Source of the DNA: Phlebopus portentosus
Taxonomy: Eukaryota > Basidiomycota > Agaricomycetes > Boletales > Boletinellaceae
Reading direction: 5' to 3'
Assembly: GCA_037892935.1 (NCBI GenBank)
Contig: JAYXKI010000010.1
Coordinates: forward strand, 558,001 to 622,000
DNA: 64,000 bases
Shown here in pieces: positions 36,421 through 61,257 of the stretch. Below the pieces are notes generated by a model. The model searched no databases. It saw only the letters and a program-made list of their open reading frames with translations, and was not told the DNA's origin. Made by a program: the position numbers and the translations under genes. Positions within the stretch are counted from its first letter, which is position 1. Each line of letters starts with the position of its first letter.

Positions 36421-36611
36421 GTTATTTAGACCTCTGGAATAAATTCATAACTAAACAAAATTTGAAATTACAAGTAAAGTCATGTGAGAAATGATTAAAG
36501 AAATTCGAAATCTCATAAAGGAAAAGATGCTTGCATTTCTCACATGACTTTACTTGTAATTTCAAATTTTGTTTGTCATCTAGTTATGAATTTATTCCAG
36601 GTCTAAATAAC
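36421..36611. repeat. Foldback (inverted) repeat, MITE-like hairpin
   Basis: The left arm (36421-36493) and right arm (36534-36611) are reverse complements over more than 70 bp. Both share GTTATTTAGACCT...GGAATAAATTCATAACT and AAACAAAATTTGAAATTAC, and both end in the word CATTTCTCACATGAC on one strand. The only differences noticed are a 2-base insertion in the left arm and about 5 extra bases in the right arm. A 40-nt spacer separates them. No protein is encoded. The structure fits a small foldback/MITE element or a hairpin RNA source. Confidence 0.85.
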
Positions 36612-45914: not shown

Positions 45915-45918
45915 ACGG
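45915..45918. repeat. Target-site duplication, left copy (ACGG)
   Basis: ACGG directly precedes the TG of the left LTR and is repeated directly after the CA of the right LTR (57404-57407). The next base on the right is T, equal to the first base of the left LTR. The duplication is therefore 4 bp, or 5 bp (ACGGT) if the LTR is taken to start one base later. Confidence 0.8.
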
Positions 45919-47261
45919 TGAAACTCCTGTGCACTGTCTGATAGCTGAGGAGTGTCACAGTTCTTGGGGGCTGTTCGGTAAGATTAAAACGAGTGGGAAA
46001 GAGAAGGGTGATCTTTGGGGGGAAAACTAGAGAAGGGCTGATGCGTCGATCTGGGTTCCGGAGCAGTTCCGGAAGGGATGGAGGAGAAATGGGATTGAAG
46101 GCTGCTGGATGTATGCGAGGGGGGGGGTTGGATTAAAGGAGATAGGCGAAGAAGCAAGGCGGGAGAAGTCGAAGCAAGGGGGGATCGGCGGTGGCGGTGC
46201 GAAGGTAATCGATGTCCTCACAGGTAATCCCTCGATGGATTCGAACCCTGAAGGCGGAAGACGATGAGACGAAGCTTAGAGAAGGACTTCCCCTAAGCGC
46301 TGACGATTCGAAGGTGATCCTTTCGAGGATCCGACACGATATAACGGGTTACGACGAGTTACGACGGGTTTCGGTGGGTTACGAAGCGAAACGGAGCGAT
46401 ACGACGCGGAACGAAGCGATACGCAAGGGACTCAAGTGAGACCTCGCGTAGAGGCGTAGGGAGGAGAGATGAGGGTCTCCGACTTCAACACGGGTTGAAC
46501 TGATCACACTGGGCTCGGGTACGACTGCAGAGCAGGAGACTCGAGGCGTATGAGACAGAACTATCGTGTATTTGTGGGAGATAGAGTCGAGGAGAGTACA
46601 GGAAGAGTCGAATTGGTCTCGACTGTAGCTAAAGTGGGTTCAAGCCCGAGCTAAACTGTTTTCTGCTAAAACTCTCGGGCTAAAAACTGGGCTCCTACTA
46701 CAAGTTGCTCGCCTATTTATAACTTTGTCCGAACCTGAGCCATCGGAGCGTCAGGGAGCATAACGAAAGGAAATCGGAAGTGAAAATCATAAGGGAACGC
46801 ACGGGAACAAAGTACGAGGTGAGCATTTCTGGAAGGTGGCGAGATAATGACCATAGAGCATAACACAAAATGTGAGCGCACACGGAATAATGAGCATAAG
46901 AATCATAAGGAACAAAACAAAATATGAACGCATATGGGACTCAAAAGGGGAAAAGCCGGAGTGCGTCGCGTCGGGTCGAAATTTGGGAGGTGTCGGGGGC
47001 CGATTGCGGATCCTTCAATTTACCTCTCGTGCCTGGGTTTAGTAAGACGAGCTAGCTAAGTCAGCCTTTGTAAGTTTTCGACTGGGTGGCTCGAGCGTCC
47101 GAAGGTTCTTCCTACGCAGCGGTCGAGTGCGAGAGGCTACAGTAGTCCGTTCCACTTCGAATCGAATCGATCCGCACTGAGTTCCGCTGTTGCGATGCGG
47201 ATCACCGCGGAACACGTGTCACGTGCGCGATCCCGGACCTAGCGTGTCGATGCTTCTTACA
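45919..47261 (-). repeat. 3' long terminal repeat
   Basis: 1,343 bp, TG...CA, matching 56061-57403 base for base as far as read. It contains a degenerate tandem run built on ACGA/GTTACGA words (about 46339-46430), a TATA-like site in element sense at 46712-46723, and a perfect pol III B-box-like word (GGTTCGAATCC) on the minus strand at 46237-46247. Its inner edge lies 134 nt from the start codon of the plus-strand cargo gene, so it probably also supplies that gene's promoter. Confidence 0.95.
46712..46723 (-). promoter_or_regulatory. TATA-like box in the 3' LTR (element sense)
   Basis: The minus strand reads GTTATAAATAGG, a good TATA element for transcription in the element's direction. The same site in the 5' LTR (56854-56865) would drive the genomic transcript. 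No equally clear TATA was seen on the plus strand. Confidence 0.6.
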
Positions 47262-47275
47262 TCTCCCGGTTTCTT
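47262..47275 (-). other. Putative polypurine tract
   Basis: Read on the minus strand, AAGAAACCGGGAGA lies directly before the TG of the 3' LTR. It is purine-rich with a CC interruption. Its position fits the plus-strand primer of LTR elements. Confidence 0.55.
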
Positions 47276-47395
47276 GAAATCGTGACTGTCCGCAGTCACT
47301 CTCCCAATAGGGTTAGACTCGGCGTCTCTAGATTCTTGACGCGTAAAACGCGGTTCGCGACGCGTTCCGTTCATCTATCCTCTCTTCTCTCCGTC

Positions 47396-49316
47396 ATGTC
47401 CCAACAACAGCAACAGCAACAGCGACAACAGCAACAACAGCAACAGCAGCAACAACAGCCGCTGTTCGACGAGATCCCTGTCTCAGCGGAGGGCTTCGTG
47501 TTCAGCGACACGTGGCTTTACGGTGTCGGAAACCAGGTCCAGGTCATCGAGCGTTTGCACGAGGACGTGGATCAGAGACGGTTCGTGAGGATGACCGTTG
47601 CGCAGTCCGTTGAGAGGGCGGAGGAAATGCGTGAGATCCAGGTGCGCTTTCTTTTCTGTCTTCATCTATTCTCTTCGTTCCGTTCCGACTTCCTGAACTT
47701 CACAGACCGCGAGAAAGAGACTCGAGGACCTTCGGCCCGAGTGGGTGCCCATCGATTTGATGTGGCCGCCGTATGCCGCGCGTTTCTGGGCGGAAAGCGT
47801 GGTTGCGCTTGCGGATCGTTGCGCAACCCTCAACATCAACTGCGACCAGCTCGATGCGCTCAAGGCTTCGTACCTCGAGGACGAAAAGCGTTCGAAGCCG
47901 GACACCGAAGTCTACGTTCAGCAATGGCGCGCGGGTTTGACCGGTCTAGAAGGGGCGATCGGTCGTCACCGCGATCTGCTACGGCCACTGGTTGGCCATT
48001 TCGACGAAAGGAAGGACGAGCTGGAGAACACGGTCATGAAGATCGATCTGGACCAGGTGAGTGCTCATTCTCGCTTCTTCTTCAAATCTTGCTAACTGTT
48101 GAACTTCTAGCTATGGCGGATGTTTTGGGTCGGTCGTCGTCCTCCCGGCACGGAGATTGACGACGTCTGGACCGAATTCGGGTGGCTCGCTTGGGCGGAG
48201 ATCCGGGGAATCCTCCTCTCAGCGCCGCTGAAGAGTCACGTCCACGAGGCCCTGCGGTGCTGGACTGCGTATGAGGAGAAGTGCTGCCCGTGCTCGGTCA
48301 AAGCCGCAGACGCCCTCGTTGCGCTGCGTTCCGACGCGCATCTCGGCGGATCGGGCCCCTTTTCGTCGGGTATATCCGAATTGACCGAGTCTGCCCTCAG
48401 GACGCTGCTGGGTCGTCAAGACTTGAGTCAGGTGGAGCGGGAGTCCGTCATCAGCGAGCTGGAAGATCGTGCGGACCGAGTTTCGTACTTGAGCGAGCTG
48501 GAGAAGATGGCAAGCGCGGTCAGGGTTCCGTCGCCGTCTTCGGATCGCGAGAGAGATGAGAGGCCCACGAAGCGGCCTCGGATTGTCGATTATTCGAGCG
48601 ACGAGGAGTCGGTAGAGGGGAACTGCAACAACAGCAGCAGCAACATTCCTTCTGCTGCCAACGGTTTCTCTTCTGGGGGTCCGGCTGGAGATGACGACTT
48701 TGGGGCTTTTGACGAAGCGCCCCTCTTTCTTCCGGACGGTGCTGTCAGCGAGAGCAACAGCAGCAACAGCAATCCTCCGGCTGCGAGCGAGTCTCCGAGT
48801 GCAGAACGAATGGAAGAGGATGAGGGAAGCCAAGGCGATGGCGGGGACGGCAGCAGCAGTAGCAGCAGCAGCAGCAATTCGTCTGCTGGTGGCTGGGTCG
48901 TGCATGATGAGGGGTGTGAGAGGTGCGCGAGGACAGGCCGGGTCTGTGAGGGTTTCCCTGGGCAGGCCTGTGATTACTGCCGCACGAAGGCCAGGCGGCG
49001 ATGCGAGCTGGCTACGCACGGGAGGGCTGCGCGTCGCCTGCGGAACGAGCAGGTGGAACGCGAGACGCGCGAAGCTCGTCAGCGCGCAACGGCGCAGGTG
49101 CTGAGGATGCCGGTTGCGCCTGTCCTCGAGGTGAGTGACATCGAGGAGTTGGTCGCCGGGACGGACGAGAGCGCCGTCCATTTCCGGATGGCGGCCTTGG
49201 AGAGGCGCGCGCGCGTGTTGTTCCGCGCTGCGGATCAACTGCGCAACCTAGCGGAGGAGATGCTGGCCGAGACCAGTGCGCTAGGAAGGGTGGTAAGGGG
49301 TGAGGAGGAAGAGTAA
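47396..49316 (+). CDS. Antisense retrotransposon cargo protein: polyglutamine N-terminus and Zn2Cys6-type cluster
   Basis: Three exons: 47396-47641, 47706-48056 and 48111-49316. They total 1,803 nt, 600 residues, and all lengths are multiples of three (checked). Introns of 64 and 54 nt have GT..AG ends. The protein starts MSQQQQQQQRQQQQ. A mostly helical region follows (YGVGNQVQVIERLHEDVD, LEDLRPEWVPIDLMWPPYAA, LWRMFWVGRRPPGTEIDDVW), then a Ser/Asn/Asp-rich acidic linker with an RPTKRPR basic patch. Near residues 469-498 lies CERCARTGRVC...ACDYCRTKARRRC. Its spacing, C-X2-C-X6-C-X7-C-X2-C-X7-C, fits the fungal Zn(II)2Cys6 DNA-binding pattern. A coiled-coil-like tail ends at EEEE. The gene lies between integrase and the 3' LTR on the opposite strand to gag-pol. 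An in-frame Met upstream at 47282 is possible. Function is unknown; a DNA-binding regulator or a targeting factor is inference. Confidence 0.85.
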
Positions 49317-49889
49317 GGAGTAAGAGGAGTGAGGAGAGGGGGTAGAGTGCGTCAAAAACGACGCTTTTCGTCTAGTGTCCCCTCATGGGACGAAAAAAAC
49401 AAAGAAAAAGAAGAAAAAGAAAAAAATAATTTGAACTTTTGTATATATAGTTTTTGTGCGTTTTTGAATGTTATGAATTTTTGTTTGCGGTTTTGACGTT
49501 TGGGGTGAAGGTAAATGAGGCGAGGTCGAAGAATAATGGAAGAATGAGGATTGAGATATGAGAAAATGAGAGATTAGAGAAAACAAGCGGTGATTATTGA
49601 GTCGAAAGGACTGAGAGAAAAATAAGCTAGTTGCGCTGTTTTGCGCAGCGCTACGCCGGGTTGCGATTCGCAACTAAGCGCATGAAGGTGAACACGCGGT
49701 TGAACGCGTATCTCGGTTTGCGCGAACACTTTTCCGAGGGTCTAAATGCGGTTGAGCGCGAATAATTCGAAGGAAGGAAAAATTGAGAGGAAAATCGGGA
49801 GAGGAATGAAATGAAACGAATAATCGAAAGGATCTAATAGAAGAAGAATGTCAGTGGTTTGCATGGAAGGTATCAGAACTGAATGGTGT
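49317..49889. other. Convergent spacer between cargo gene and pol
   Basis: About 570 bp inside the element, between the 3' ends of two convergent reading frames. It is A/G-rich on the plus strand (GAAAAAGAAGAAAAAG near 49400). It may hold polyadenylation signals for the cargo gene. No open frame of note is present. Confidence 0.5.
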
Positions 49890-51122
49890 TTATAAGTTGA
49901 GGTTTTGAGATTCCGACTGGGCGTCGGAAACGTCGTCTTCTTCTGGTTCGATTGGGGGGTTGGCGTCGTCCTCGAGTTCGTCATCTGCTGCGTTTACGAG
50001 TTTAGTAACGGGTACAGAGAGATTCGAACGAGGAAAGTAAGGAATCAGGCGAAACGCAGCTACTCGGATCTTCGAGACTGATCCGTCGAGTTCCGCAATG
50101 ACATATGAACCGGCCTTTGTTTTGCGTACTACCACGTAGGGTCCTAGGTATCGGGGCTTCGTCTTGCGATTAAGTTCCATTTTGATGCGCGTATTTCGCA
50201 ACAATACGAGTCGTCCTGGCTGGAAATCGTAGTCTTTGATTTTGGCCTTGTTGATCTCTTCGAATTGCCGCGCGTATGCATGCCGGGCATCGGAAACTAA
50301 TCTGGCGATTCGATCCAGTTCCTCAGGACGCTTCTGGAGCTGCTTCGCGCGAGTTGCGATGAGTTCCGCAGTCGGAACAGGCGTATCGACCGGGGGGGCT
50401 AAGTACGTGGCTTCGGCGAGGTCGAAAGGTAGAATAGGCTCTACTCCGTGTACCATGTAATACGGGGACATTCCGGTCGCCTTCTGGATGGTGATTCTTT
50501 CTGCCCAAAATACTGAGTAAGCTTGGTCGCTCCATCGTTTGTCATTACCGTCTACAGCCTTTATCAGGGCTTCCTGCACATCGTAGTGGCGTCTTTCTAC
50601 AATTCCATTAGCGCGAGAGTTGTATGCTGAGATGCGTATGTGATTGATGTGATATCGATTCTTGAGGTAATCGAGTGCTGCGATGAACGGTTTCCCATTA
50701 TCTGTTACGAGCTCGGGACAAGCGCCGTATCTGCAAAGGAGGTCTTGGAAAATGAACTGGGCTATCGCTTTGCCGGTTTCTTCGCGCAAGAGTCGAAATT
50801 CGGGGTAACCGGATAAAGCGCATCGGGCTTGTACGATGTACCGGTATCCTCCAGACTTCGGCATTACCTTGGTGTCGATGTGTATGCGCTGGAAAATCGA
50901 TGGTATTGTTGGTACGACCGGGGGAATTAGAATGTTCTTCGTCTGGCGAACTTGGCACTCATGACAGGTGCGCACGTAGTATTTGACGTCTGGACCGAGG
51001 GTAGGCCACCAAAATCGTTCCAGGAGTCGAATTCGAACAGAGTATACTCCCTTGTGGCCTAGATCGTCATGCGCTTGCTTTACGAGGTTCCATCTGCGTT
51101 CCGGTTCGATTACGACCTGGTG
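49890..51122 (-). CDS. pol: Retrotransposon pol, integrase part (after the in-frame TGA)
   Basis: This is open from directly after the TGA at 51123-51125, in the same frame as RT-RNase H, to the stop at 49890. The HHCC zinc-binding domain comes first (QAHDDLGHKGVYS, then RTCHECQVRQ). The catalytic core is next: IHIDT, TDNGKPFIAA and NGIVERRHYD supply the D, D and E. A C-terminal domain follows with FQPGRLVLLRN and YLGPYVVVRKTKAGSYVIAE, which fits the SH3-like/GPY/F type. The first internal Met (50975) lies after the HHCC zinc domain, so re-initiation there would lose that domain. Integrase inserts the cDNA into the host genome. The tail is acidic (DDELEDDANPPIEPEEDDVS), without a recognisable chromodomain. 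Confidence 0.9.
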   Translation of the reverse strand, partial: HQVVIEPERRWNLVKQAHDDLGHKGVYSVRIRLLERFWWPTLGPDVKYYVRTCHECQVRQTKNILIPPVVPTIPSIFQRIHIDTKVMPKSGGYRYIVQARCALSGYPEFRLLREETGKAIAQFIFQDLLCRYGACPELVTDNGKPFIAALDYLKNRYHINHIRISAYNSRANGIVERRHYDVQEALIKAVDGNDKRWSDQAYSVFWAERITIQKATGMSPYYMVHGVEPILPFDLAEATYLAPPVDTPVPTAELIATRAKQLQKRPEELDRIARLVSDARHAYARQFEEINKAKIKDYDFQPGRLVLLRNTRIKMELNRKTKPRYLGPYVVVRKTKAGSYVIAELDGSVSKIRVAAFRLIPYFPRSNLSVPVTKLVNAADDELEDDANPPIEPEEDDVSDAQSESQNLNL

Positions 51123-51125
51123 TCA
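51123..51125 (-). other. In-frame TGA within pol, between RNase H and integrase
   Basis: The TGA follows the RLWKKVRNG segment, and the frame continues without another stop into the HHCC domain. The context is TGA followed by C, a comparatively leaky tetranucleotide, but not the strong CTA readthrough context. A CpG transition from CGA would produce exactly this codon. It can be a single inactivating mutation or a programmed readthrough site. Confidence 0.85.
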
Positions 51126-53475
51126 TCCGTTCCGCACCTTCTTCCACAAACGTCCGTCTCTAGCGAAGAAATTTGCCGCGTACCTGATCAGCGCTGCATA
51201 GCCACGATCGTCTAACTGATCCGGTCGCTTCTGGCCGATCAAGAAGCTCTTGACGCGATCCAAGCGAGCATCTTTCGGGTTAGCTCTCTCGGAGCTGGGA
51301 AACAAGGTCAACGCGATGTCAGTCATCTTCGGGAAGTCAGAGCTGCCGTTTCCCTTCCGGCGTTTACTGTTCGAGCCCTCGAGGTATCCTACTGATCCGA
51401 GAGTTGCTTGCGCATTTCCAGGGCTCGATGGGAGTCGTTTCGCTTGGTTGCGCGCACGTAAGTCTGCGCAATACGTCGTAACTGGGTTTTCGATGTAGAA
51501 TCCATACGTGTCGTCTATCCACTCTTCGTATCCTTTGTCCGGAGGTGGATCTTCGGGTGCCGGGGGTCGTCGAGAAAGTCCGTCGGTGCATTTGAAGTTT
51601 GCCGCCGGGATGTGGCGAATCTCGAAGTCGAATAGAAGTATCCCGGCGATCCAGCGGTTGATCGTAGCGTTAGGTTGTAAGTCCGGGTTGTTAATCATGC
51701 CTTTAATGTATGCTGCGTCCATTTCTACGACAAGCTTGCGCACTCCGATGAGATATAGTCGCATGGCGTGTAACGTACGAAATAGTCCGTAAAGTTCGAT
51801 TTTCGGTTGGGAGTATGTTGCTTGCGTGGCATTCCAGTTTATGGAACCGAAGCGATTAATCCTTCTCCGTCCATCTACGTGTTCTTGACCCAAATACCAT
51901 CCTACTCCGATAATCGATGAATCCACCGCAAGTACGACTTCGAGTTGCGATTGATAGTCTATTGCGCATAGAGCTGGACACCTAATGACCGCTTCTTTCA
52001 ACTCGTTCATTGATTCCTGTTCTTCGTCTGTCCAATCGAAAATGTTGTTCTTCCGAGTGAGTCGATTGAGGGGGCGTGCGATCTTGGCGAAGTCCTTAAT
52101 GAAAATTCGCAGGACTCCCACCGTTCCGAGGAATCCTTTGACTTCGGTTACCGATCGGCACGGCGGCCAGTCCCTGACCTTCTGGACTTTCGATTCGTCT
52201 GGCTCTCGTCCGTAATATGTCAGTTTGTGTCCGAGAAATACGATTGACTCAACGCCGATCTCCATTTTCTTTCCTGAGTACGTTCCTCCCACTGCCTTGA
52301 CTCGCTGCAAAATTCGATTTACGTCGCATATATGCTCGTAAATAAATCGCCTAATCCCTGGATTCTCTGGCAGGGTTTCGTAAGAGCCATCCGGGAGTTC
52401 GTAGCGCGTTTTGGGACCTAATCCGGGCGAATCGTCTGCATACGGATCGGTACAGTGCGGAATCTCGTCTTGTAGGATGAAAGCGACGTCATTGTGCATA
52501 ATCTGAAGGGAATTCGTGTATCCCATCGGGAGAACCGTCATTCTGAACGTTCCCAAGGGAGTCTGAAATGTCGTGAGATCTCGAGAGCGTTCGTCTAGAA
52601 CTCGCTGGTCAAAAGCCACATAGAAATCGAGGCTCGAATAACAACTTCGTCCGCCGCAACGCTCCGCAATGGTCTCTATATTCGGCGGAACGGCTGAGTC
52701 TCGGACGGAAACGCCATTCATGTCTTGCAGGTCGAGTATAAATCGAAGGGAGACTCCATCTTTCTTGACTAGGCAAAACCATCGTGATCGGTACGAGGAG
52801 TTAGACGGTTCAATGGCTCCATTCTTGATTTTCTTGCGAATCAGGTTGATGGTACGCTCGAGAATACCCGGAGGAATAGGTATGTTCTTGTGTACCCACG
52901 GTACATGCGGTACCGTCGGGATGCGAATCGGATCGAAGTATTGCGCATCGAAACTACCCCGTTCCGCTTCCGTCCACGCTAGTGCTCCTTCCTGCAGCAT
53001 AAGTAGGTTAGCCACTAGCAGCCTTTCTTCGGGCCATAAGAACTGATTCTCGTCAATCCTGAGGGCTTCAAACCGCTCCTTCGTAAGTCTGCCTATGGGC
53101 GTAAACGGTTTCGGTTTCTTTGGTATTTCGGACAGTCCTTCGAGCGGGTTCGGATGCCTCCTTCGAACGATCCGAAATTCTTCTGGTAGTACCCCGGGGA
53201 CGGGCCGTACTTTCTGAGCGACGCGTTTGTACATGAGTACCGCCGGGTCGTCGTCGTCCGGGGTCTCTAGAATACATGATCTATAAGGTCGATTTGAATA
53301 GTCAGTAGCGAAACGCATTGGGTCTTTCATCAGCTTCCGAAGCTGGTTACTAAATAGAGAGGTGAAAGCGTCGGAAACATCAATAGAATAGATAGAAAAC
53401 GTATTGTTGAGGCTTGAACATGAATAATCGCCTACGTCTCGCTGACGTCTTAGTATCAGTTCCTCGACGTCTGCT
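51126..53475 (-). CDS. pol: Retrotransposon pol, reverse transcriptase and RNase H part
   Basis: The frame is open from the -1 frameshift region (53475) to the TGA at 51123. The first Met is at 53330. The reverse transcriptase spans roughly residues 165-340 counted from that Met: RWFCLVKKDG, LRFILDLQDMN, SSLDFYVAFDQ, TPLGTFRMTVLPMG and the YADD box near residue 297, a variant of the usual YxDD. The RNase H has AVDSSIIGVGWYL near residue 467, IELYGL, VEMDAAY and TDGLSRRP, so the D-E-D-D set is present. It synthesises and processes the cDNA of the element. Most likely it is made as a Gag-Pol fusion through frameshifting, because the open frame overlaps the end of gag. Confidence 0.92.
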
Positions 53476-53483
53476 GAAAACCC
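53444..53483 (-). promoter_or_regulatory. Putative -1 programmed ribosomal frameshift site (Gag/Pol)
   Basis: On the minus strand the heptamer GGGTTTT (53477-53483) stands in the gag frame as G GGT TTT, the X XXY YYZ arrangement. The seventh sense codon after it is gag's last. Five nt downstream begins GACGTC (53466-53471). A second GACGTC (53444-53449) can pair with it across a 16-nt loop, and two more pairs are possible beyond an A-A mismatch. The -1 frame is open from the heptamer to the pol Met without a stop. Confidence 0.72.
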
Positions 53484-56059
53484 TGTTGCGCAACGTTGCG
53501 CAACACGTTCCGAATTCCAGTCGCGACCTTGCTATGTCGATTCCTGTCGTTGGGGTCTGATAGCGTTATATGCTGGTCTCCCGAGGTATAATCCTTGGTT
53601 TCGCATTCGGTTACTGCGAAGAAGGGTCGTCCGAGTAGCGCCTGAAACGGCGCCTGACGAACGACATGCACTTGCAGGGAAAGATCAATCCCGGCTATCG
53701 TAAACTTGGCGTTCGGGATTAGTCCTACGGTGGCCGACTTCGCTGTGTCCGCCATCTCGATGGTCGTGCTCTGGTCCGGTGATAGGGGCACTTGAAGTTT
53801 TTCCCAAACGTCTTCCCTAATCAGACACACTGCTGCGCCTTGATCGAGTACGCACTCCACTTCCATCGCGTCCTCCACTACGGCTGTAATCATACGAAGG
53901 GGGAGAGTTGCTTCCGCGGTCACTCCCGACGTTCCGATGGACAGAATCGAGTCCTCAGGTTGTTGCGATGCGGTTCCGCACAGTTGCATGGCGTAACTCG
54001 GCGATTCGACGAGATTCACATCGGCAGCGTTATATCTCTTTGCGGTAGTGAGTTCCTTTAGTTGCTTTCGTAGTTCGGGGGCGATCGATAACAGTTCCCT
54101 TTGGCTAAGCGTAATGCTCGTGTCGAGCGTCCGAGTGAGCACGTTAGAGACAGCGTTAGAATCTTCAACGGGGACTACGTAGCGGTATTGGGGTTGGGGG
54201 TTCGAGGGTTTTCTAATATCATCCCGCTGCGGTGACAAACGTGAAACCGCCGGGGACTTAGGAATAGGGGGTGGCGACTGCTGCGCCTTCGAAGCCCCTC
54301 TTCCCGGCGGTCCCACTTTTGTCGGAATGACTACTCCGTCGAACTTCTGCCTTTTACCAGTCGCCGCTTTCTTCTTTGCCTCGTTGAGCAAGATTTCTAA
54401 ACGTTCTACTTCGTAATCGGTCTCTTCTGTCTGATCCTCGCCGATTTCCTGGAGCATAGCTGATGCTATCGGCTCGGCCGGGGTTTCCGGGTGCTCGGCG
54501 ACTTCGATGATGTTGACTGGATGTGACGGGTTCGGCTTTAGCAAGTTGTCAATTCGCTCCATCAGGTTCCGGCCCGAAACCCTACTCGATACGAAGGCTC
54601 CGTTTGGCATGACTACTCGTCCGTTCGAGTCACGTAGACACTTTCCGGCCTGGATATACTCGAGTACCTTCGGGCACGACCTTATAAAGTGGCCGGGATC
54701 GCTGCAGAACGCACATCCGGGCGTGCGAGCCAATGGGGCCGGTTGCGGACCTGTTGCGATTCGAGGGCCCTGGCCTCTAGTGAGCGATTCCAGTGTTACC
54801 TGAAAACCCTTCAGCGTTTCCCAAACTTTACTCAAGTCCGTTTCTTCCTTCTTGACGGTCATTCCATGTCCTCCCGACGACGCGCTCATCGTTGCGCTCG
54901 TTCCGCCGCTCATCGGGTCGGATCCGATCTGATCGACTGCGGATCCCGAAAGAATGTACATAGCTGCGTTTGCTACTTTCTCGATGTCGTAGGGGTCGCC
55001 CCTCTCGTGGTCCGGGTCCTTGATTTCGAGCCTTTGCAGGATATCCTTCCTAGTCTGGCCCGAAATGCCTCGAAGAAACGCGAATTTCGAGTCGTTCTCG
55101 GTAAGTTTGTTGCTGGTAACTAGATACCTGGCTCTGCGTAGGAACTCGCGATGATAAGTGCCGAATTCATCTCTGGTGTGAATACCTTTTTCGGCCCATT
55201 CGGCGATGAACTGCTCCAATTCGCCCCTAGAGTATCTCTTGCCGTCTGCCAAACTTGGATAAAGCTTCTTGACGGCCGTTTTGAAATCTCCGACGCTCGC
55301 AGGGGCGGCAGAAACTTCGGGGAGGGTCTCCCATACTTCTGCAACGTCAGTCTTCGCATAGTACAGGTACCCACGTCTGATGGTAGTCGACGCATCCCAG
55401 TTGGAATCTATTGCGATCGCATCCACGTCGTCGAAGAAGCGGAACAGTTCCTTCGGATCGGAACCGTCGAATACTGGTGCTCTCTTGTCACCTCGAAGAG
55501 GTGGTCTAACTGCAGCCATCTGGTTCGATATACGCTGCAACTGCTGATAATTGGTCTGAAGTTGGTTAAGGATCTGCAGGTTACTTCCCAGTCCTTGGAG
55601 GTGGTGAGCGAGAGTTAATCCGCTTGGTTGCGACTGTTGCGCAAGCGGATCGACTTGGATCGCTTGATTGGAGGTTTGAGGCTGTCTGAGCCTAGCGGGG
55701 TCTGGGTAATCGAGTCGAACAGTGATATCCTCAGGCGACGAGGATTCTTGCTCGGAGAATTCGGTAGGTAGATCGGTTTCTTGGAAACTAAAAGGAGACG
55801 ATTCGGCCGACGGCTCGAACGATGGTAGGGTACTGGACTCGGTCAGAGGTGAAGGTTGAATTACTGAAGAACTTAGCGACGATGCTGTGGTGCTTCTAGC
55901 GCTTGCCCTCTGCCTAGGTGTCCGAGGTGTGACTTGGGGTAAGGCTTGGTGAACTACGGGGATACGGGCTGATTGGCTTCGGGTAGTCCGAGTACTACCT
56001 GGAGTTTGGTTACTCGTTTTGGACGAACAGTGAATTTCCCCCCTCGCCGTGGGCTCCAC
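53456..56059 (-). CDS. gag: Retrotransposon gag with zinc knuckle and aspartic protease
   Basis: An open frame of 867 codons that ends in TGA at 53456-53458. Order: a Ser/Thr/Pro/Gln-rich N-terminal 180 residues; a capsid-like helical region (APVFDGSDPKELFRFFDDVD, VEQF-type helices, FAFLRGISGQTRKDIL); a CCHC knuckle (CAFCSDPGHFIRSC); a Pro-rich linker; and an aspartic protease with VECVLDQGAAVCLI and LGRPFFAVTECE. The frame begins at a GTG right at the primer-binding site. The first ATG is only at residue 181 (55519), just before the capsid-like part. Translation may therefore start at 55519 and give about 687 residues, or start upstream in an unusual way. The protease active site is DQG instead of the usual DTG or DSG. 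Confidence 0.9.
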   Translation of the reverse strand: MEPTARGEIHCSSKTSNQTPGSTRTTRSQSARIPVVHQALPQVTPRTPRQRASARSTTASSLSSSVIQPSPLTESSTLPSFEPSAESSPFSFQETDLPTEFSEQESSSPEDITVRLDYPDPARLRQPQTSNQAIQVDPLAQQSQPSGLTLAHHLQGLGSNLQILNQLQTNYQQLQRISNQMAAVRPPLRGDKRAPVFDGSDPKELFRFFDDVDAIAIDSNWDASTTIRRGYLYYAKTDVAEVWETLPEVSAAPASVGDFKTAVKKLYPSLADGKRYSRGELEQFIAEWAEKGIHTRDEFGTYHREFLRRARYLVTSNKLTENDSKFAFLRGISGQTRKDILQRLEIKDPDHERGDPYDIEKVANAAMYILSGSAVDQIGSDPMSGGTSATMSASSGGHGMTVKKEETDLSKVWETLKGFQVTLESLTRGQGPRIATGPQPAPLARTPGCAFCSDPGHFIRSCPKVLEYIQAGKCLRDSNGRVVMPNGAFVSSRVSGRNLMERIDNLLKPNPSHPVNIIEVAEHPETPAEPIASAMLQEIGEDQTEETDYEVERLEILLNEAKKKAATGKRQKFDGVVIPTKVGPPGRGASKAQQSPPPIPKSPAVSRLSPQRDDIRKPSNPQPQYRYVVPVEDSNAVSNVLTRTLDTSITLSQRELLSIAPELRKQLKELTTAKRYNAADVNLVESPSYAMQLCGTASQQPEDSILSIGTSGVTAEATLPLRMITAVVEDAMEVECVLDQGAAVCLIREDVWEKLQVPLSPDQSTTIEMADTAKSATVGLIPNAKFTIAGIDLSLQVHVVRQAPFQALLGRPFFAVTECETKDYTSGDQHITLSDPNDRNRHSKVATGIRNVLRNVAQQGFQQTSRN
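56042..56058 (-). other. Putative primer-binding site
   Basis: Two nt inside the 5' LTR the minus strand reads TGGAGCCCACGGCGAGG. It begins with the TGG that pairs with a tRNA CCA end. The tRNA was not identified. The site lies at the very start of the gag open frame. Confidence 0.5.
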
Positions 56060-56060
56060 T

Positions 56061-57403
56061 TGAAACTCCTGTGCACTGTCTGATAGCTGAGGAGTGTCAC
56101 AGTTCTTGGGGGCTGTTCGGTAAGATTAAAACGAGTGGGAAAGAGAAGGGTGATCTTTGGGGGGAAAACTAGAGAAGGGCTGATGCGTCGATCTGGGTTC
56201 CGGAGCAGTTCCGGAAGGGATGGAGGAGAAATGGGATTGAAGGCTGCTGGATGTATGCGAGGGGGGGGGTTGGATTAAAGGAGATAGGCGAAGAAGCAAG
56301 GCGGGAGAAGTCGAAGCAAGGGGGGATCGGCGGTGGCGGTGCGAAGGTAATCGATGTCCTCACAGGTAATCCCTCGATGGATTCGAACCCTGAAGGCGGA
56401 AGACGATGAGACGAAGCTTAGAGAAGGACTTCCCCTAAGCGCTGACGATTCGAAGGTGATCCTTTCGAGGATCCGACACGATATAACGGGTTACGACGAG
56501 TTACGACGGGTTTCGGTGGGTTACGAAGCGAAACGGAGCGATACGACGCGGAACGAAGCGATACGCAAGGGACTCAAGTGAGACCTCGCGTAGAGGCGTA
56601 GGGAGGAGAGATGAGGGTCTCCGACTTCAACACGGGTTGAACTGATCACACTGGGCTCGGGTACGACTGCAGAGCAGGAGACTCGAGGCGTATGAGACAG
56701 AACTATCGTGTATTTGTGGGAGATAGAGTCGAGGAGAGTACAGGAAGAGTCGAATTGGTCTCGACTGTAGCTAAAGTGGGTTCAAGCCCGAGCTAAACTG
56801 TTTTCTGCTAAAACTCTCGGGCTAAAAACTGGGCTCCTACTACAAGTTGCTCGCCTATTTATAACTTTGTCCGAACCTGAGCCATCGGAGCGTCAGGGAG
56901 CATAACGAAAGGAAATCGGAAGTGAAAATCATAAGGGAACGCACGGGAACAAAGTACGAGGTGAGCATTTCTGGAAGGTGGCGAGATAATGACCATAGAG
57001 CATAACACAAAATGTGAGCGCACACGGAATAATGAGCATAAGAATCATAAGGAACAAAACAAAATATGAACGCATATGGGACTCAAAAGGGGAAAAGCCG
57101 GAGTGCGTCGCGTCGGGTCGAAATTTGGGAGGTGTCGGGGGCCGATTGCGGATCCTTCAATTTACCTCTCGTGCCTGGGTTTAGTAAGACGAGCTAGCTA
57201 AGTCAGCCTTTGTAAGTTTTCGACTGGGTGGCTCGAGCGTCCGAAGGTTCTTCCTACGCAGCGGTCGAGTGCGAGAGGCTACAGTAGTCCGTTCCACTTC
57301 GAATCGAATCGATCCGCACTGAGTTCCGCTGTTGCGATGCGGATCACCGCGGAACACGTGTCACGTGCGCGATCCCGGACCTAGCGTGTCGATGCTTCTT
57401 ACA
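56061..57403 (-). repeat. 5' long terminal repeat
   Basis: 1,343 bp, TG...CA, the same as 45919-47261 as far as read. In this copy the TATA-like GTTATAAATAGG (56854-56865, minus strand) would promote the genomic transcript. Confidence 0.95.
56854..56865 (-). promoter_or_regulatory. TATA-like box of the 5' LTR promoter
   Basis: The minus strand reads GTTATAAATAGG. It is the best match to a TATA element in the LTR and is placed to start transcription toward gag-pol. Confidence 0.6.
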
Positions 57404-57407
57404 ACGG
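57404..57407. repeat. Target-site duplication, right copy (ACGG)
   Basis: ACGG follows the CA end of the right LTR and matches the four bases before the left LTR. Confidence 0.8.
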
Positions 57408-59929: not shown

Positions 59930-61257
59930 ATGGCATCTAAGTCATCAAGAGTAGGGCTGTATCGTCGGCTTGATTTGCTTTTGCCTGCTGCAATAATCTC
60001 CTTCATCTTGTACGTGGACTTGCCTCTCACTGGTGCTATCGCTGACTGTTCTCAAGGAACGGCTGGTATTTGAGTCTTATAGAGGTCGGAAGTTAGTCCT
60101 ATATCTTGTAATCCCTTCGCTTCCCGAATAACACCACGGCTTTTAGTTCGGTTTCTAATCCAAAGGAATGGCTCAGTATGGTTTGGATGTAAACAGGTTT
60201 GCGATTGTTTCTAGTGTGAATGATTCTGAAGATTTTTTTGTAGCGCTATACATCCTCGTCACGGGAATTATGTTCGGTACTTTGGCGGCTCTGATTATCT
60301 ACGTTGTTTCGACGAGGTTTTACCAAGGCTCAGGAATTGCCTACCACTCGGACCCGCCCGAGCCATTGCTCCTTACGGAACCTTATGAATGTGTAAACGC
60401 TCAAGGTGACCTTCGTTGCTGTGCGAAAAGTGAAGGTCCCTGTTATGGGAAATGGAAACCACCGCGGACTCACCATTGTTCGACGTGCGGAGTCTGTCGT
60501 CCAGGATTTGATCACCACTGCCCTTGGGTACGGGGGATTTACGTCTTCAGCTTACAGTAACTTACTATGTGTCAAGTTAGGGGCATGCATTAGATCCTCT
60601 AATATGCCGGCCTTTCTCTTGATTCTCATTATCACGCCTATTCTTTTTCTTGCGGCTGTCTTCCCTATAATGCCTATTCTTCCAGCTCGTATTTCCCATG
60701 CTTTTTGGGTTTCCAGACAGACGCTCTGGATCAGAGAGCAATGGTGGGATAGATGGTATTCGTGGGTTTTCATCGGAGGTCCTCCCGGCAGATATATGGT
60801 CGGTACCCTCATGGGCTTGAAGCAAATGCAAGACACGGAGTGTCAGGTCTACGAATGCGAAAGTCCCGGCACTGCTATCGCTAAGCCAGGAATCAGGCTA
60901 ATTCTGACGATCTTTTTTGCAGTCTTTCTAAGCATAGCTGCTGGTGTGAGTCTCGATCCGGTGGAGGAAGTTGTCGTACTGAAACCGTCATTCTAGATTA
61001 TGACTTTGGCGACGATACGAGATATCACTTTTGGCCGAACTACTTTGGAAACGTTCGGGAAGAAAGGGGCTTCCGGGGCCGAGAGAAGAGGTCCCTCGAG
61101 CTTCTTATGTATCCCTGCAACTTCATCGTTAATCCAGCGAAAAGTTTACAAAGTCCTTCCCGGTGATAGACTATATGACCTCGGCTGGAGGGCAAACTGG
61201 CGGAAGTTCTTCCTTCACGTAAAGAGGAACAGCATCTTCGGGATCGATGAAAGGTAG
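59930..61257 (+). CDS. DHHC-type protein S-palmitoyltransferase
   Basis: The start is MASKSSRVGLYRRLDLLLPA at 59930. An intron of uncertain ends lies between about 60050 and 60170. A membrane segment follows (YILVTGIMFGTLAALIIYVV), then the Cys-rich domain RTHHCSTCGVCRPGFDHHCP. Intron 60528-60576 (49 nt) joins CPW to LGACI, restoring the family's usual CPW-[LV]-G-x-C pattern. Further membrane segments (FLLILIITPILFLAAVFPIM and LILTIFFAVFLSIAAG) come next, then intron 60946-60996 (51 nt), the family-typical TTxE-like segment (GRTTLETF) and LYDLGWRANWRKFF near the C-terminus. DHHC enzymes attach palmitate to cysteines of membrane proteins, with the DHHC cysteine as acyl carrier. The 5' exon junction and the last codons are not fixed. 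Confidence 0.82.

Follow-up and report, generated by a model that had tools for sequence, protein, structure and literature searches.

A spliced antisense gene encoding a zinc-cluster-like protein in a lineage of fungal Ty3/gypsy retrotransposons

The window, the whole 64-kb stretch of DNA analysed here, contains a Ty3/gypsy element (45919-57403, gag-pol on the minus strand) which carries on its opposite strand, between integrase and the 3' LTR, a three-exon gene for a protein of 600 amino acids (47396-49316, plus strand). Three related element families in the genome of this mushroom-forming fungus (A, to which the window copy belongs, B and C) share the layout, which makes it probable that the gene belongs to the element as an accessory gene and was not captured as a passenger on a single occasion. 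We favour, with moderate confidence, the reading that it is the accessory gene of one fungal Ty3/gypsy lineage and encodes a spliced antisense DNA-binding regulator of its own element, in the manner of HBZ.

The host element appears to have been inserted recently, as its 3' LTR (45919-47261) and 5' LTR (56061-57403), both 1343 bp long and in minus-strand orientation, are identical and the tetranucleotide ACGG is found directly outside both of them (45915-45918 and 57404-57407). On the minus strand, an open frame of 880 codons between stops (53459-56098) covers gag and protease, and Pfam placed reverse transcriptase and RNase H at 51123-53531 and the integrase reading frame at 49890-51122; the domains recognised on this strand were a zinc knuckle (weak), an aspartyl protease, reverse transcriptase, RNase H and integrase H2C2. 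In the window copy, with its identical LTRs and intact antisense gene, RNase H is split from integrase by an in-frame stop at 51122/51123. This junction is open in other family A copies, with frames of 1212-1262 amino acids.

Splicing of exon 1 (47396-47641, with the ATG at 47396), exon 2 (47706-48056, based on the gene model and the alignment of copies) and exon 3 (48111-49316, stop codon included) yielded the antisense frame described in the initial annotation of this DNA. Intron 1 (47642-47705, 64 nt) and intron 2 (48057-48110, 54 nt) are both GT-AG introns of phase 0 and thus keep the frame as had been claimed, the N-terminal polyglutamine was confirmed at residues 2-21, and the distance from the end of the LTR (47261) to the ATG is indeed 134 nt. 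The cysteine cluster (48915-49004, residues 468-497) has the spacing given earlier, C-X2-C-X6-C-X7-C-X2-C-X7-C, with cysteines at 468, 471, 478, 486, 489 and 497; the earlier residue numbers (469-498) were off by one. Across the six frames of the window this cysteine pattern occurs once. It is followed by a basic and helical C-terminal part (49005-49313) in which a model of modest confidence suggests a possible dimerisation helix. As an open frame antisense to gag-pol and located from pol to the 3' LTR, the gene is an additional antisense ORF, and at the level of the gene model it is predicted to be a spliced antisense gene adjoining the 3' LTR, as HBZ is.

A DNA search of the genome (38.4 Mb in 23 contigs) with the antisense gene returned 50 matching pieces, which, the window itself apart, are together covered by the 34 loci that we fetched. 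Each of the 34 loci was bordered by LTR or spacer sequence at one end or by sequence from the integrase side of the element at the other, and no free-standing DNA copy of the gene was present among them. Among the 20 long copies that were aligned (window included), 13 retain the start, both pairs of splice sites and the frame, and a frameshift, a stop or truncation disrupts the other seven. The lengths of intron 1 (64 nt) and intron 2 (54 nt) are constant in all 20.

Six loci (L029 and L031-L035) lack the middle of the gene and are joined between CAG/CAA tracts (gene positions 1-62 to 1226-1358), probably by copy-choice or slippage events. We considered these short forms as a separate functional version and rejected it: they are deletions between CAR tracts, and in the copies that were read, including L031, the frame set by the start codon either differs from that of the zinc cluster or is closed by stops before reaching it. 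Nested or rearranged copies were also seen: L024 has a second LTR piece joined to a gene start on the opposite strand, and in L030 and L037/L038 an LTR is inserted inside the antisense gene. CpG transitions dominate the differences between copies (363 of 593 when the copies are compared pairwise with that of the window over 47396-49316; codon-model kappa for family A copies of 40), and their excess is a methylation or RIP-like pattern.

To find more distant relatives, we used the C-terminal 142 amino acids, which matched 105 places in the genome, including a second group (about 32% identical) whose open frames reach about 540 amino acids; the middle of the protein matched family A only (28 places). 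With the integrase of family A as query, 114 of 510 candidate places were scored, and these were assigned to A (29), B (56, about 70-81% identity) and C (29, 52-55%). Linkage was accepted when a zinc exon lay on the opposite strand, on the 3' side of the integrase and at most 4 kb away. This was found for 111 of the 114 scored integrases (27/29 in A, 55/56 in B and 29/29 in C), as compared with two of the 150 scored integrases (of 482 candidates) from other gypsy families, a control which is sequence-based, so that a quite different antisense gene in those families would escape it. Conversely, a listed integrase accompanied 27 of 33 zinc exons of family A, 55 of 67 of B and 29 of 33 of C. Zinc exons free of internal stops number 22/33 in A, 57/67 in B and 32/33 in C. 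The 34 element-flanked loci and the 111 integrases together support the spliced antisense gene as one that travels with the element, and make the alternative of a single captured host gene, which the initial annotation had also raised, unlikely.

The antisense gene of family B encodes 724-747 amino acids in three exons, with phase-0 introns of 52 and 47 nt; its exons 1 and 2 measure 261 and 375 nt, versus 246 and 351 nt in A, and its intron 1 has the corresponding position, ahead of an ARK-E-L--RP stretch like that of A. Element order and strands are the same as in A. This gene structure was seen in three of three fetched loci, which had been chosen for long open frames. In a family C locus, the antisense gene occupies the same place and orientation, has at least five exons and ends with a cluster spaced C-X2-C-X6-C-X8-C-X2-C-X6-C. 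Neither of the two family C loci that were fetched held an intact gene, both losing frame at a G run in exon 1, a part of the model that may be misjudged; one of them, L048, loses frame again in exon 5 of the model.

We also observed a single locus, L047 (C3:2959485-2960129), with a six-cysteine cluster of the form C-X2-C-X6-C-X7-C-X2-C-X6-C on a contig without a listed gypsy integrase. The antisense protein of A finds B with an E value of 6e-12, L047 with 7.6e-5 and C with 0.002-0.003 (computed with the database size set to 1000), so that L047 is closer to A than C is. L047 may be a host source of the gene, or else an element gene that the host has since adopted.

Outside this genome, the nearest named relative is P0001 of Sanghuangporus sanghuang, with 93% identity to the antisense protein. 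It continues across both exon junctions, which indicates that its annotators removed the same intron sequence; close to the N-terminus it is shorter by another 23 residues. The search with the 600-residue protein proposed in the initial annotation was swamped by low-complexity words and gave one match, and residues 22-350 gave the same match; the alignment A1 gave four matches (P0001-P0004), all of them from Sanghuangporus (sanghuang, vaninii and baumii). A scan of viral contigs with the integrase gave no matches.

Families A, B and C, L047 and P0001-P0004 all retain the six cysteines without exception, although most of the rest of the sequence is divergent. Between A and B, where synonymous sites are saturated, dN (NG86) was 0.80 for the C-terminal antisense part (identity 0.32) versus 0.15 for integrase (identity 0.77). 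For 15 frame-keeping copies of family A, the codon model gave an omega of 0.57. Changes common to at least two copies comprised 22 nonsynonymous and 23 synonymous ones (spectrum-corrected omega 0.63), with 8 versus 1 in the C-terminal part alone, and singleton changes gave an omega of 0.95. A CpG-aware pooled estimate over 25 copies, which are not independent of each other, gave a dN/dS of 0.79 for the antisense gene (0.91 for the C-terminal part, 0.69 for the rest) versus 0.50 for integrase. Pairwise values ranged from 0.74 to 1.35 for the antisense gene versus 0.45-0.69 for integrase, and in two comparisons the antisense gene exceeded 1 by more than 0.05 (L028 1.08, L042 1.35, with L039 1.07).

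Since old copies have decayed after their insertion, such values are drawn toward 1; integrase is clearly lower than the antisense gene under the same decay. The initial annotation had taken a dN/dS near 1 as an argument against the gene, and in this respect our result is ambiguous, being below 1 but not far from it (0.79, with integrase at 0.50). From these sequence comparisons, we conclude that constraint on the antisense protein is weaker or more variable than that on pol, but not absent.

The consensus of Zn2Cys6 proteins is C-X2-C-X6-C-X5-12-C-X2-C-X6-9-C, and its spacing is found in A, B, C and L047. In fungal Zn2Cys6 factors the cluster is usually N-terminal, whereas in the window protein it is close to the C-terminus (residues 468-497 of 600). 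The Pfam model Zn_clus (PF00172) had no match in the family A protein and remained below its cut-off of 21 in family C (13.5 bits) and L047 (12.5 bits); as the gathering score was not reached, we call the antisense protein Zn2Cys6-like and do not file it as a member. A weak similarity to DUF7283 (12.7-15.9 bits, and 21.9 bits for P0002) was also below the cut-off of 27, no Pfam match on the antisense protein was accepted, and neither PF04195 (TRP28) nor a bZIP domain was matched in it.

A profile of four C-termini (A2) gave six sub-threshold matches among PDB sequences at E values up to 10. Five of these (E 0.17-3.7) were Put3 (two chains), Pho7, C27B12.11c and AlcR, which we take to be zinc-cluster regulators, Pho7 and C27B12.11c presumably being one protein. 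The window protein has its cysteine spacing in common with Put3, Pho7 and AlcR (PF00172), but unlike such factors it is below the Pfam cut-off and encoded by a retrotransposon. NDC1, found in the first PDB search, was rejected as a relative because only the polyglutamine (residues 2-50) was matched. An AlphaFold model of P0001 at full length was poor (pLDDT 41.6). In the modelling of the cysteine cluster, which the initial annotation had suggested, the C-terminal part reached modest confidence (pLDDT 73.2, pTM 0.32), and two helix starts are predicted at the C-X2-C pairs with long helices behind them. Foldseek gave no match at E 10 or better. Zinc-cluster-like DNA binding may fairly be inferred for the antisense protein.

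A candidate target is located in the spacer between the 3' LTR and the gene. Beside the LTR is a polypurine-tract-like stretch (47262-47280, minus strand), named so by position and composition and kept in A and B, and next to it the spacer alignment revealed a hyphenated palindrome, GTGACTGTCCGCAGTCAC (47282-47299), the sole such sequence in the window. In family B the palindrome GTGACCGTCCGCGGTCAC is found at the same place, and the rest of the A/B spacer is mostly different, the polypurine-like block excepted. A joint pattern for the palindromes had 77 matches in the genome and the reversed-pattern control had none; in 68 of the 77 cases a zinc exon of family A or B follows within 2.6 kb and with matching orientation, and several of the remaining nine lie in interrupted or cut copies. 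The palindrome was not seen upstream of the family C gene.

The T-A to C-G change of the palindrome pair could be two CpG transitions, given that 6 of the 77 sites carry just one of the two changes and that CpG transitions dominate in these copies. It therefore says little about pairing, and more weight falls on the conserved position. An outer base pair was rejected as a compensatory change: it is unpaired in the window, and the family A copies in which it does pair carry a probable CpG change. The palindrome may serve as a binding site for a protein, or it may form an RNA hairpin close to the plus-strand primer site. The spacing C[CT]G-N4-C[AG]G presumably resembles an everted Leu3 site.

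For the antisense gene, we infer transcription, zinc and DNA binding, dimerisation, a target site and a regulatory role as follows. Plus-strand transcription of the proviral DNA would begin within the 3' LTR or beside it, and the two short introns would be spliced out of the antisense mRNA. The protein would consist of a low-complexity and helical N-terminal part, the C-terminal Zn2Cys6-like cluster and then a long helix, probably dimerising, and would be a nuclear DNA-binding regulator of its own element. Its target would most likely be the palindrome between the polypurine tract and the gene, or the LTR, and sense versus antisense transcription would be tuned, as by HBZ in HTLV-1. The introns survive reverse transcription because they lie opposite the genomic RNA strand and are not spliced from it; genomic RNA holds them as their reverse complement, which splicing cannot remove, and this explains the constant intron lengths among copies.

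The motif scan of the LTR found TATAAAT on the gag-pol strand (46715-46721, minus) and none on the plus strand, so the antisense start would be TATA-poor. This is no obstacle in principle, since antisense transcription of HTLV-1 is described as starting in R and U5 of the 3' LTR (PMC3185765). A more specific version, which we put forward tentatively and hold to be rather doubtful, is that of a Gal4-type dimeric antisense regulator recognising C[CT]G-N4-C[AG]G next to the 3' LTR, both in its own copy and in sister copies, as an independently arisen counterpart of HBZ, with regulator and site co-diverging between A and B. If this is true, the element sets its own balance of sense and antisense transcription.

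Among the explanations considered, we rank a self-regulating DNA-binding protein as the most likely, followed by targeting or anti-silencing, an effect of the RNA, and a passenger gene. The protein might guide the pre-integration complex to chromatin or block host silencing (RNAi, methylation), with its cluster binding host promoters or partners. The same anatomy would be expected, no relatives of the N-terminal part or of the middle were detected in B or C, and the C-terminal part has changed faster than integrase (dN 0.80 versus 0.15), as in host conflict; however, the fast change also fits weak constraint, and we regard such a role as possible but somewhat unlikely. Alternatively, the antisense RNA could matter and not the protein, through double-stranded RNA or interference with sense transcription, the frame being mostly a relic. 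A dN/dS near 1 within the family, the seven broken copies of the 20 long ones and the copies at six loci that lost the middle between CAR-repeat tracts are compatible with this. On the other hand, families whose synonymous sites are saturated still have the splice sites, the intron phase and the six cysteines in common, and the middle of the protein is short of stop-making changes (33 seen versus 55.9 expected, the expectation being rough), which makes an RNA effect alone unlikely.

Still less probable is a single capture of a host zinc-cluster gene by the common ancestor of A, B and C, with the gene riding along since then as a passenger of no benefit. L047, with its similar cluster outside the listed elements and nearer to A than C is (E 7.6e-5), would suit such a history, but it could equally be an element gene taken over by the host, and useless cargo should have vanished from some families, whereas 111 of 114 integrases keep the zinc exon. 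A further candidate is the ORF of 342 amino acids on the gag-pol strand (48219-49247, minus), which overlaps exon 3 and might be the real gene, for example an env-like one, the antisense frame being a chance product of G+C-rich sequence. This ORF is open in 14 of the 20 copies, so that openness alone does not discriminate between the two frames. However, in the same search in which the antisense frame finds B, C and L047, it had no match in any of the three, and it gains stops in 6 of the 20 copies, in four of which the antisense gene is intact. We therefore consider this explanation highly improbable.

Some plant gypsy elements have antisense extra frames, as the initial annotation had stated: antisense ORFs from pol to the 3' LTR are described for the Ty3/gypsy elements Grande (gene23), RIRE2 and Retand (PMC7264820, PMC11963269). 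They are similar to the window gene in their place, antisense orientation and presence in most copies of a family (27 of 29 integrases of family A here), and also in a possible nuclear or DNA-binding role. The Retand ORFs, however, have a TRP28 domain (PF04195), which was not matched in the window protein. In the available text on the plant ORFs, a zinc cluster is not mentioned in PMC7264820 and introns are mentioned in neither PMC7264820 nor PMC11963269. Boty-like elements of Botrytis cinerea carry an additional antisense gene, brtn, likewise in a fungal gypsy element (PMC7264820, PMC8365987, PMC4227169), a likeness that we draw by description; Boty pol is reported to have a chromodomain (PMC4227169), whereas Pfam found none in the pol of the window element.

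HBZ of HTLV-1 and APH-2 of HTLV-2 are described as products of spliced antisense transcripts from the 3' LTR, which are nuclear, have a DNA-binding-type domain and damp sense transcription (PMC3185765). HBZ is a bZIP protein, whereas the window protein is zinc-cluster-like and has no sequence relation to it; the HBZ transcript starts in the 3' LTR, and the start codon in the window, known from the gene model, lies outside the LTR. Searches of open-access literature brought up no report of an antisense gene in a fungal gypsy element that is spliced or encodes a zinc cluster. Antisense accessory ORFs as such are already known, from plants and Botrytis; the spliced fungal form with a zinc cluster appears to be new.

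Most of the antisense accessory genes described for LTR retrotransposons come from plants. The fungal lineage offers more than 100 loci in one 38-Mb genome, many intact copies, culturable hosts and a candidate binding site, and the C-terminus of the protein hints at its function, so that the role of an antisense gene can be tested directly. The lineage also illustrates that a spliced gene can ride a retroelement, as introns opposite the genomic RNA strand are not lost. Two further features of the window were noticed in passing: a perfect 41-nt inverted repeat with a 40-nt spacer at 36453-36574, and, downstream of the element on the plus strand, a DHHC-type palmitoyltransferase motif, read by eye, at about 60500-60530.
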